Shown piece by piece: positions 26,039 through 37,905 of a DNA stretch of 64,000 bases (position 1 is the stretch's first letter; every line of letters begins with the position of its first letter). The stretch is from Clostridia bacterium (GTDB taxonomy: Bacteria > Bacillota > Clostridia > Oscillospirales > Acutalibacteraceae): positions 27,931 through 91,930 of the forward strand of contig JAFXBG010000013.1 in assembly GCA_017521925.1 (NCBI GenBank), in the 5' to 3' direction. The notes beneath the pieces were generated by a model, which was given only the letters and a program-made list of their open reading frames with translations, did no database searches and was not told the origin of the DNA. The translations under genes were made by a program, and so were the position numbers.

Positions 26039-26503
26039 TTAAGATAAAATGCCGTAAGGGCTGCAGTAAAGATTTACTGATGCAGTATAGTCTGTTGAAC
26101 CGATTAAGTTTTTCTGGGTAGCTATAGCAGTAGCCGTTGCACAGTTACCGCTTCTGCTGCAGGAAGTGCTCTTTATAGACCATGTGCTGGCATAAGCATC
26201 AGCACTGCGGGAAACGCTGACGCAGGAAGATGTGGTTCCATTATAGGTAAATGTACCGTTAACTGTTACAGACCACATAACTTCGTCACTGCTGTTAAGA
26301 TATTCCCTTGTCTTATAACCAGATTTGCTTGCAGCTCTGGTGTTATCTTCGTAATATGTAATATATGTTCTTATTTTGTCGCCGTTTTCAAGTACCTCTA
26401 CAAAAGTTTCAGTTATTTCTGTATTTGTCGCACTAACAGGCAGACAGAAAATCATACCGAAAACCATTACGCATAATAATACTAATGCTAAAACTTTCTT
26501 CAT
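26039..26503 (-). CDS. Secreted cysteine-containing protein of unknown function
   Basis: The 154-residue product has a signal peptide (about 1-25, ending PVSA). The mature part is Ser/Thr-rich and predicted beta-strand: EVMWSVTVNGTFTYNGTTSS, then WSIKSTSCSRSGNCATATAI, ending in LYCSPYG. Four cysteines could form two disulfides. I recall similar secreted proteins in gut Firmicutes with no assigned function; this is memory, not a search. It is the last gene of the padR-DUF6120 operon, so its level is probably controlled by PadR. A role as secreted effector or surface factor is speculation. Confidence 0.7.
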   Translation of the reverse strand: MKKVLALVLLCVMVFGMIFCLPVSATNTEITETFVEVLENGDKIRTYITYYEDNTRAASKSGYKTREYLNSSDEVMWSVTVNGTFTYNGTTSSCVSVSRSADAYASTWSIKSTSCSRSGNCATATAIATQKNLIGSTDYTASVNLYCSPYGILS

Positions 26504-26519
26504 TAATCATAACTCCTTA

Positions 26520-26903
26520 TTAATTGTATTCTCCTACTATATCATTACTAACAACTACTTCCTGCTTTTTACGCGAATAATATTCTGAATATAAATACAC
26601 ACAAAAAGCAGACGTCGCGATAGTAGCAAGAACAAGCAAAACCGATAATACAGTTTTAACAATCCTGGTTGTTCTAATTTGCTTTGATATATACTCTATA
26701 TCAACACAACGCAAATAACTGTTTACAACGTCACTGGGATTGCCGTATTTCTCATAAAGCTCTTCCTTGTTGGTGACTTTTGCATCTTCGCAAAAGCCCT
26801 CAATGTCAGAAGCAATCTTTCTGATATACTCCCGCTCGGGTTTTCGCTTTATGGGGAACAATGCTTTTACTTCAATCATATATTCCTTGCAGATTCTATT
26901 CAT
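26520..26903 (-). CDS. Single-pass membrane protein, DUF6120-like, PadR partner
   Basis: The 127-residue product starts at ATG 26903, overlapping the padR stop by eight bases, with GGGAGG upstream. Residues 1-75 are a helical cytoplasmic region (YIRKIASDIEGFCEDAKVTN, YGNPSDVVNSYL) like DUF6120/HAAS signalling domains; a membrane helix follows (about 83-105) and a short tail outside. Proteins of this kind are typically encoded right after padR and are thought to sense an envelope signal and modulate the regulator. The precise ligand is unknown. Confidence 0.75.
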   Translation of the reverse strand: MNRICKEYMIEVKALFPIKRKPEREYIRKIASDIEGFCEDAKVTNKEELYEKYGNPSDVVNSYLRCVDIEYISKQIRTTRIVKTVLSVLLVLATIATSAFCVYLYSEYYSRKKQEVVVSNDIVGEYN

Positions 26904-27246
26904 CCTTATCGTCCTCCCTGTCAAGTATAGTCAGAATATTCTGCACGCCGTTTGTTGTATTGCGGTAACTATCCCTAAGCTCTGCAAGGTAAGCACGACC
27001 GTCTTCTTCAAGGCGGTAGTAAACCCTTGTACGTCTTTTGCCCACAAGCTTTGAATACTCAGAAATTCTGCCGTCATTTCCAAGCTTATAGGCGGCGGCA
27101 TAAATAGTGTTCTGAGAAATCCTCAGCAAGCCTCCGGAATAATCTTCAATACATTTTACAATTTCATACATGTACCTGTCTTTACCTTCAAGAAGCGATA
27201 GAATCAGCATATCGGTAATGCCGTTCATAAAATAATTTTTACTCAT
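26896..27246 (-). CDS. PadR-family transcriptional regulator
   Basis: The 116-residue protein is a PadR winged helix: ITDMLILSLLEGKDRYMYEI, ISQNTIYAAAYKLGNDGRI, then the wing KRRTRVYYRLEEDGRAYL. PadR proteins repress their own operon until a ligand or partner releases them. I start it at the ATG at 27246, where the mRNA has GTGGGGTGTGAAAATATG; frames from 27297 would enter the promoter. That GGGGTGTG is complementary to CACACCCC octamers in the divergently encoded RNA at 27372-27540. It heads an operon with a DUF6120 membrane protein and a secreted protein. Confidence 0.92.
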   Translation of the reverse strand: MSKNYFMNGITDMLILSLLEGKDRYMYEIVKCIEDYSGGLLRISQNTIYAAAYKLGNDGRISEYSKLVGKRRTRVYYRLEEDGRAYLAELRDSYRNTTNGVQNILTILDREDDKDE

Positions 27247-27265
27247 ATTTTCACACCCCACAGAT

Positions 27266-27294
27266 ATTATACAACAAAAAACGTGAAATTTCAA
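27266..27294 (-). promoter_or_regulatory. SigA promoter of the padR operon
   Basis: Minus strand TTGAAA, 17-base spacer, TATAAT, ending 20 bases before the padR start. Confidence 0.75.
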
Positions 27295-27336
27295 CACATA
27301 TTTTTAAAATTAAATATTATAATTAATAAAATATTG

Positions 27337-27365
27337 TTGACAAAACTACAATTTAATGATATATT
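27337..27365 (+). promoter_or_regulatory. SigA promoter of the predicted small RNA
   Basis: Perfect TTGACA, 17-base spacer, TATATT with TG one base before the -10. Confidence 0.7.
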
Positions 27366-27371
27366 ATTTTT

Positions 27372-27540
27372 GGACGTTGTGTTAAGTTTCTTCACACCCC
27401 GCGAACTACACATCGTTCAAAACTCAATTTTCCCACCCCAAATTAGCTTCTGCAGTTTTAGTTATCTAAACAACAGAGGCTTATCTATTTTTACCCCACA
27501 CCCCTTTCGGCACAGCTTTTACGCTGTGCCGATTATTTTT
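27372..27540 (+). ncRNA. Predicted C-rich regulatory small RNA
   Basis: A strong promoter and an intrinsic terminator (CGGCACAGC/GCTGTGCCG, 27508-27531, then ATTATTTTT) define a transcript of about 169 bases with no credible reading frame. A central hairpin is visible: CTTCTG and GTTTTAG pair with CTAAAC and CAGAGG (27447-27479). Three C-rich stretches lie outside it: CACACCCC (27393-27400), CCCACCCC (27432-27439) and CCCCACACCCC (27494-27504). C-rich single strands that mask Shine-Dalgarno sequences are known from Gram-positive sRNAs. TTCACACCCC here is a 10-base complement of the padR RBS. Transcription and targets are unproven. Confidence 0.6.
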
Positions 27541-27625
27541 GTGTACAAAATTTAATGATTTATTTACTAAATATCAAATTTCTTAAAAAACTCTGAAATA
27601 AGTGTAACAAAATGTGTAAAAAAGA

Positions 27626-27706: not shown

Positions 27707-28366
27707 GTGCGAATCCGTAAAAAGAAATGGGCTCAGCCTGAGCTTGACGCCTGCAGCTTCTTTGTAAATAACCCTGAGGAACACAGGGGCAAATGGGCAG
27801 ATTTTTTCTGTGATGCTCAGCCTCTGGAGCTTGAAGTTGGCTGCGGCAAAGGTACTTTTGTTGCAGAAAAAGCCCTGAGAAACCCTGACGTAAACTTTAT
27901 TGCAATGGACATTAAAAGCAATATGCTGGGTGTTGGCAGACGTAACATTGTAAGACGTTTTGAAGAAGCCGGCAGAGAGGTTAAAAACATTGCACTGGTA
28001 GCTTTCAATGTTGACCAGATTTTTAGAGTTATAGGGGAAGATGACAAAATTGACAGAATTTACATAAATTTCTGTAACCCCTGGCCAAGAGGCAAGCACA
28101 ACAAACGCCGTCTTACCCACCCTACCAAACTTAACCTTTACAAAAACTTTCTGAAAAAAGGCGGAGAAATCCACTTTAAAACCGACAACGACGAACTTTT
28201 TGAAGACAGCCTTGAATATTTCAAGGAATCAGGCTACGAGCTTTTGAGGGTTGTCCGTGATTTGCATAACAGCGACATTGAGGGCAACATTGTTACCGAG
28301 CACGAAAAGATGTTTTCTGATGAAGGTATTCTTATCAAATACCTTGTAGCAAAGCTTCCTGAATAA
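27707..28366 (+). CDS. trmB: tRNA (guanine46-N7)-methyltransferase
   Basis: The 219-residue protein has the TrmB motifs: LELEVGCGKGTFVAE (SAM loop, about 41-55), INFCNPWPRGKHNKRRLTHP with the substrate-binding core, FKTDNDELF, and the C-terminal TEHEKMFSDEG. The common FPDPWP is FCNPWP here, a variant seen in clostridial TrmBs. It makes m7G46 in the variable loop of tRNAs. Translation begins at GTG behind AAGGTGA. The lipoprotein gene follows after 12 bases. Confidence 0.95.
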   Translation: MRIRKKKWAQPELDACSFFVNNPEEHRGKWADFFCDAQPLELEVGCGKGTFVAEKALRNPDVNFIAMDIKSNMLGVGRRNIVRRFEEAGREVKNIALVAFNVDQIFRVIGEDDKIDRIYINFCNPWPRGKHNKRRLTHPTKLNLYKNFLKKGGEIHFKTDNDELFEDSLEYFKESGYELLRVVRDLHNSDIEGNIVTEHEKMFSDEGILIKYLVAKLPE

Positions 28367-37651: not shown

Positions 37652-37905
37652 AAACATAAGCGTTGAGCGGGAGAAGTAACCGATAGACGAGACTTCACAG
37701 AGATTGCGGCAAATGCTGAAAGCCGCAAAGGTGTCGGCGGTAAAATGCACCCGTGAGCTTCCTTGGGGAAATCCTTTTTAAAGGAGTGTATCTGAGGTCG
37801 GCAGACCCCGATATCGGTCACAAAGGGCTGTGTGTATACATAGCTGAATTTGGGTGGAACCACGGTATAAGCCGTCCCTTTTTGGGACGGCTATTTATAT
37901 TTTCT
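37652..37905 (+). promoter_or_regulatory. Cysteine T-box riboswitch
   Basis: The leader ends with the T-box sequence GGGTGGAACCACGG (37852-37865) and the terminator AGCCGTCCC/GGGACGGCT (37870-37892) with a T-rich tail. The stem I region contains AGTA and, on its 3' side, the candidate specifier TGC (37746-37748) in AAAATGCACCC, matching cysteine. Uncharged tRNA-Cys should stabilise the antiterminator and switch on cysE-cysS. The 85 bases between the terminator and cysE hold only the RBS. Confidence 0.93.

Follow-up and report, generated by a model that had tools for sequence, protein, structure and literature searches.

A candidate C-rich small RNA divergent from padR and its predicted pairing with the padR Shine-Dalgarno sequence

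Introduction

What does the region between the divergently read genes padR and trmB encode in this Clostridia bacterium, and could its product act on padR itself? A sequence-only reading of this DNA proposed a small RNA (sRNA) gene in the gap, with repeated C-rich motifs complementary to ribosome-binding sites. We followed up this proposal in the window, meaning the whole 64,000-nucleotide stretch that was analyzed, and in related genomes. The window comes from a 1.41-Mb assembly that is 72.6% complete. The region in question (27337-27540) sits between padR, which is on the minus strand with its ATG at 27246, and trmB, which begins at 27707 on the plus strand.

Results

A candidate sRNA gene

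The following features define the candidate gene.

27337..27365, plus strand: sRNA promoter, TTGACA-17-TATATT with TG preceding the -10; 11 of 12 consensus matches
27372..27540, plus strand: candidate sRNA, about 169 nt long, its start being an estimate based on the -10; fold z -7.38
27372..27418, plus strand: hairpin 1, whose loop holds CACACCCC (predicted fold)
27391..27400, plus strand: TTCACACCCC, core of the 13 pairs predicted to form with padR (sequence and pairing prediction)
27432..27439, plus strand: second C-rich motif CCCACCCC, predicted to be single-stranded, in the linker between the hairpins
27445..27481, plus strand: hairpin 2 (predicted fold)
27493..27504, plus strand: third C-rich motif ACCCCACACCCC, predicted to be single-stranded, in the linker before the terminator
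27507..27540, plus strand: intrinsic terminator and T-rich tail (consensus scan)

The sequence-only reading described the promoter correctly in its perfect -35 element (TTGACA, 27337-27342), its 17-base spacer and its TG-extended -10, but the -10 hexamer (TATATT, 27360-27365) is imperfect. The terminator hairpin (27507-27532) has 10 pairs, 7 of which are G-C, and is followed by the T-rich tail. As had been claimed, the interval from promoter to terminator contains no gene with an evident ribosome-binding site. An sRNA of the LhrC/RsaE type is expected to have its own promoter and intrinsic terminator with no gene between them, and that arrangement is recognized here by consensus match only. 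The stretch is AT-rich, and matches resembling promoters are common in it (17 vs 7.9 in shuffles); those resembling terminators are less common (6 vs 2.4).

The predicted fold of 27372-27540 has an energy of -45.9 kcal/mol (z -7.38), which none of 200 shuffles equaled. Its architecture consists of two hairpins and the terminator, with a C-rich loop and C-rich linkers. The motif CACCCC occurs three times against 0.15 expected, a count reached in none of 2000 shuffles; most of our tests were done after the pattern had already been noticed. All three copies are unpaired in the predicted ensemble (0.99-1.0); a hairpin loop exposes one of them and the linkers the other two, a result that bears out the earlier description of a hairpin accompanied by three unpaired C-rich stretches. 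Several unpaired C-rich motifs are likewise what an LhrC/RsaE-type sRNA should carry. UCCC proper is present, by eye, in only one of the three stretches. An Rfam covariance-model scan of the sRNA returned no family at its gathering score, and the matches at E<=10 fell far below the gathering scores. The conclusion that 27372-27540 encodes an sRNA gene, read divergently from padR, is well supported by these sequence features.

The padR cassette

Three genes and a promoter make up the cassette on the other side of the gap.

26039..26503, minus strand: third cassette gene, a secreted 154-aa protein with a signal-like N-terminus (by eye); no Pfam family at cut-off
26520..26912, minus strand: DUF6120 protein (PF19615) with a GNP (GxP) motif and one hydrophobic stretch (by eye)
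26896..27246, minus strand: padR (PF03551, E 1.4e-13)
27266..27294, minus strand: padR promoter TTGAAA-17-TATAAT; start estimated near 27259, leader of about 13 nt

The genes for PadR, the DUF6120 protein and the secreted 154-residue protein likely form one operon. Relatives of padR (E<=1e-12) are present in 22 of 161 genus genomes and relatives of the DUF6120 gene (E<=0.001) in 23, our genome being included in both counts. Homologs of the secreted protein occur at 25 of 33 padR loci (E<=1e-4). At E<=1e-30, a search of 394 order genomes recovered only the padR copy studied here, and no padR was found in viral contigs. The padR relatives that carry names (18 loci) belong to Ruminococcus, Oscillospiraceae, Lachnospiraceae and other records. 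In the five relatives inspected, the surroundings of the cassette differ. Genome G020 (75% complete) has DUF6120 and secreted-protein genes behind a radA-like gene (L072/L184, by eye) and no padR at E<=1e-12, and may hold a cassette that lacks its regulator. Separately, a T-box leader (117.8 bits) lies at 37654-37882.

A probable PadR operator and two classes of divergent transcript

We compared 33 non-duplicate padR loci, using a script rule to call divergent TTGACA promoters. A promoter of the same kind as that of the sRNA was called at 19 of them. One further element abuts it in our window.

27311..27336, no strand assigned: probable PadR operator TAAATATT-N11-AATATTG, abutting the sRNA -35 (presumed binding)

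The left half of this dyad, TCAATATT, stands at the same distance before the promoter at 14 of the 19 loci (our own half is one base off), and the right half, AATATT, directly precedes the promoter at 12. Because the dyad is common to loci with differing downstream genes, we regard the copy at 27311-27336 as probably the PadR operator. Matches to the operator-like pattern were found in 52 of 161 genus genomes. Among 30 such loci that were fetched, CACCCC follows the pattern in L144, L153 and L160, each beside padR; in L157 it lies close behind an operator-like site with no padR there. The 14 loci called as promoter-less were left out of the transcript comparison, and they include L100, from a close relative, as well as L138 and L139, which do hold TTGACA. 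The divergent region of L100 (G068) has no recognizable -35 at the usual place, and an RHS-like stretch follows (by eye).

The first 169 nt of the divergent transcript were folded at each of the 19 loci (306 nt for G104) with 60 shuffles each, a length that in some cases reaches the downstream gene. Four transcripts are structured and C-rich: our own and those of G104 (L098), G090 (L101) and G098 (L102). Their fold z values are -7.05, -4.36, -6.32 and -6.21, and their C contents 28%, 29%, 22% and 25%, respectively. In the remaining 15, z ranges from -2.07 to +1.03 and C content from 5% to 17%. Over 169 to 305 nt, CACCCC occurs three times in our transcript, twice in that of G104 and once each in those of G090 and G098, and it is absent from the first 170 nt of the other 15. 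The counts in the three relatives are marginal against their own shuffles (P 0.02, 0.05 and 0.08), and the motif had been noticed in them by eye before testing. A terminator-like hairpin stands at the end of our transcript and of those from G104 and G090. At L102 in G098, the PadR-type promoter reads towards a pqqD gene (PF05402), and the transcript may be a leader; a pqqD gene under such a promoter hints at a peptide-modification locus with the same control. At 7 of the 19 loci, a leader of 127-227 nt precedes a divergent gene whose protein has a secreted-like start, as called by script. Very short frames, each a start and a stop with at most a few codons between them, follow Shine-Dalgarno-like sequences in the leaders downstream of the PadR-type promoters of L099, L113, L116, L134-L137 and L140.

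Predicted pairing with padR and other targets

The predicted target of the sRNA lies just ahead of the padR start codon.

27250..27259, minus strand: padR Shine-Dalgarno region GGGGTGTGAA, predicted target (pairing prediction)

We scored pairing with opening costs on both sides for 64 window genes, whose starts were predicted by our script. padR was the best partner (rank 1 of 64), with 13 consecutive pairs over its Shine-Dalgarno sequence, in which UUCACACCCCGCG contacts UGUGGGGUGUGAA and two of the 13 pairs are G-U. The energy is -24.0 raw and -16.71 kcal/mol net, compared with -11.54 for the runner-up gene, and only 1 of 300 shuffled RNAs paired with padR equally well. The padR mRNA is estimated to start near 27259, so that the target would stand at the very front of a leader of about 13 nt; computed with this leader, the net energy remains -16.2. 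Complementarity to the padR Shine-Dalgarno sequence, which the sequence-only reading had claimed, came through these comparisons. Its suggestion that yifB is also a target fared worse, as yifB ranks fourth of 64 at -9.9. The DUF6120 and secreted-protein genes of the cassette pair in an ordinary way (229 and 144 of 300 shuffles were as good).

The Shine-Dalgarno complementarity expected of an LhrC/RsaE-type sRNA exceeds chance in our genome but not in the three relatives tested, where 64, 36 and 214 of 300 shuffles paired with padR as well as the transcripts did. None of the G104, G090 and G098 transcripts stands out against padR, the DUF6120 gene or the secreted-protein gene, the best result being the 36 of 300 for G090 and padR. 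We also considered the two DUF6120 copies as targets of the G104 RNA; they rank first and fourth of 68, but 143 and 38 of 300 shuffles did as well, and we rejected this candidate. In our genome, GGGGTG ahead of an ATG is not enriched (40 sites vs 42 for the reversed pattern). Since pairing exceeds shuffles here only and GGGGTG sites are not enriched, the prediction that the sRNA targets padR is supported in its own genome and is not shown to be conserved in the relatives tested.

Our preferred reading, to which we give somewhat less than an even chance, is that of a lineage-specific sRNA that works like LhrC, is repressed by PadR, targets padR and locks the cassette on through a double-negative switch. 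PadR would probably repress the sRNA through the dyad at its -35. The loop of hairpin 1 would pair over 13 positions with the padR Shine-Dalgarno sequence and block padR translation. A signal, perhaps passing through the DUF6120 membrane protein, would relieve PadR repression and allow the sRNA to be made. The sRNA would then keep PadR low, and the double-negative switch would lock the secreted-protein cassette on. The promoter, predicted fold, exposed motifs, terminator and complementarity that enter this scheme are read from the sequence; from them we infer transcription of the sRNA, PadR binding, repression and the signal.

Two rival explanations are the strongest: an sRNA that acts chiefly on other targets, and a remnant that has no function. 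The first would also be PadR-controlled, but its CACCCC loops would mimic the 16S anti-Shine-Dalgarno and its match to padR would be a side effect. This fits the transcripts of G090 and G098, which have CACCCC loops and no padR pairing beyond shuffles. It also fits GGGGTGTG, which precedes the start of a TetR-like gene and of one other gene in an own-genome sample chosen for holding the octamer. We consider this explanation unlikely, as padR pairs better, by 5 kcal/mol, than any other of the 64 genes predicted in the window and GGGGTG before ATG shows no genome-wide excess.

Conservation and relatedness

A search for sRNA homologs in 160 other genus genomes, in which up to 5 candidates per genome were scored, gave only short terminator-like matches in G026 and G074. 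In a set of 59 genomes from the genus and order, our own included, 47 had a match at E<=1, and those inspected were short promoter- or terminator-like stretches. The G104 and G090 transcripts matched only themselves among 161 genus genomes, apart from a 33-base match in G019. A search for the triple CACCCC architecture found matches in 7 of 161 genomes, and the six outside our own were rejected as repeats or coding sequence, judging from the printed bases. In L145 (G028) and L158 (G104), downstream of a match near 1500, a nearly identical noncoding-looking stretch follows CAAAATATTCTTGACA. Both copies contain TTGGACTCTTAGATGAGCCGTTACTTATAGATATCC and have no Rfam match; they may represent a repeat or an RNA not yet described.

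G026, the relative nearest to our genome by TrmB (86%), keeps trmB and NIF3 and has no padR or DUF6120 match. The sequence-only reading had staked its sRNA on conservation of the C-rich motifs in genomes that keep the flanking genes. The outcome is mixed: the sRNA has no more than short terminator-like matches in the 160 other genomes and G026 keeps the flanking genes without the cassette, but three other padR loci carry differing structured, C-rich transcripts with CACCCC in the same place. By sequence search, the other three C-rich transcripts show no counterpart to our sRNA, and all four look too unlike one another to align. In a PadR tree of 33 rows, the four RNA-type loci are ungrouped and require 4 changes, and 500 of 500 shuffles were as low. 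Our locus shares a three-member group with G104 and L099 (support 91/86), and at L099 the divergent gene encodes, by eye, a secreted protein. The RNA-type class may have arisen by repeated swaps at the same promoter, or it may be an RNA that changes fast. A broader account, which we hold with more doubt than belief, is that HAAS-like PadR cassettes of this genus swap their divergent outputs, these being secreted proteins at some loci and a fast-evolving structured CACCCC RNA elsewhere, and that the RNA here pairs with padR to form a repressor-sRNA toggle.

The remnant explanation holds that a padR cassette inserted ahead of a terminator already present there and lost its divergent gene, leaving a functionless transcript of leader length. 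G026, which lacks the cassette, has a 26/27-base match to the sRNA terminator hairpin on the NIF3 side of trmB, about 0.5 kb upstream, and the sRNA terminator may be older than the arrival of the cassette. The length of the leaders at 7 of 19 loci and the lack of sRNA conservation in the genus genomes searched agree with this history. However, the G026 hairpin has a short T run and was not scored as a terminator by our scan. The 15 other transcripts are C-poor with energies near shuffles, and the motif count and fold of our own are far from shuffles. A remnant is, in our judgment, rather unlikely.

An alternative reading of the octamer as a DNA site

The 64-kb window contains three copies of CACACCCC (27252-27259, 27393-27400 and 27497-27504), just where the sequence-only reading had placed them: twice in the sRNA and once at the complement of the padR ribosome-binding site. 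The longer TTCACACCCC is found at 27250-27259 and 27391-27400. The assembly holds 23 copies of CACACCCC compared with 10 of the reversed octamer. Three copies anywhere in 64 kb are not rare (reached by 6 of 100 shuffles), but in 400 simulated windows with matching dinucleotide composition, three inside 253 bp never occurred. This clustering and the copy at the estimated padR start could be read as a DNA site of PadR or another regulator, an alternative raised in the sequence-only reading, rather than as an RNA element. We find that very hard to credit: positions near +22 and +126 of the sRNA would be unusual for an operator, and CACACCCC lies within 460 bases upstream at just one of the 33 padR loci, our own, while the AT-rich dyad at the -35 recurs. 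Least probable of all is a small protein encoded across 27378-27555, where a GTG frame is open throughout but has no clear Shine-Dalgarno sequence, spans the terminator and is matched in length in 21% of 600 shuffles.

Discussion

If the preferred reading is correct, a little-studied envelope-signaling switch of gut Bacillota would gain an RNA arm, and a route by which such a switch could turn bistable would come into view. This reading would also mean that an sRNA was gained by an output swap of a regulator cassette that is sited differently across genomes.

In the open-access papers searched, we found none that joins small RNA, C-rich, Shine-Dalgarno and PadR, and DUF6120 goes unmentioned there. 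The Qrr sRNAs of Vibrio act on the mRNA of aphA, a PadR-family gene. The sRNA proposed here would resemble them in having a PadR-family mRNA as its target, and it differs from them in the bacteria, chaperone, sequence and outcome involved.

In HAAS-PadR pairs, PadR adjoins a small membrane protein with a GxP motif (PMC11237479), and the PadR genes of Listeria PadR operons are autoregulated (PMC6624303). The cassette described here has a stand-alone PadR winged helix (PF03551) beside a DUF6120 protein in which a GxP motif can be read by eye. GNP, GKP and GTP are likewise read by eye in the DUF6120 proteins of our genome, G104, G090 and G020. The DUF6120 protein is a possible HAAS-like partner of PadR. 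It differs in that it matches no HAAS or DUF1700 model, and none appears among the Pfam matches of five DUF6120 proteins at E<=10. The portions of the two papers drawn on here note no RNA component in either system (PMC11237479, PMC6624303).

The closest known counterparts of the sRNA are the C-rich regulators of low-GC bacteria, in which the C-rich motif is assumed to block Shine-Dalgarno sequences (PMC4132741). RsaE, RNAIII and SprD of S. aureus and FsrA of B. subtilis bind their target mRNAs through such a motif (PMC4132741); theirs is UCCC as against CACCCC here, and their sequences were compared with ours via the Rfam scan only. In LhrC1-5 of Listeria monocytogenes, three redundant C-rich sites bind G-rich sequence that precedes the start codon of lapB (PMC4132741). 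The LhrC motif is also UCCC, with one site in the terminator loop (PMC4132741), whereas of the CACCCC copies here one sits in a hairpin loop and the others in linkers. There are five copies of LhrC, which depend on LisR and target lapB (PMC4132741); the sRNA described here is single-copy, has no Rfam match, is probably PadR-controlled and has the neighboring repressor gene padR as its predicted target. The likeness to LhrC1-5 lies in a short, G-poor RNA that carries three C-rich sites in a loop and in single-stranded parts, and in the predicted pairing of such a site with a Shine-Dalgarno sequence (PMC4132741).
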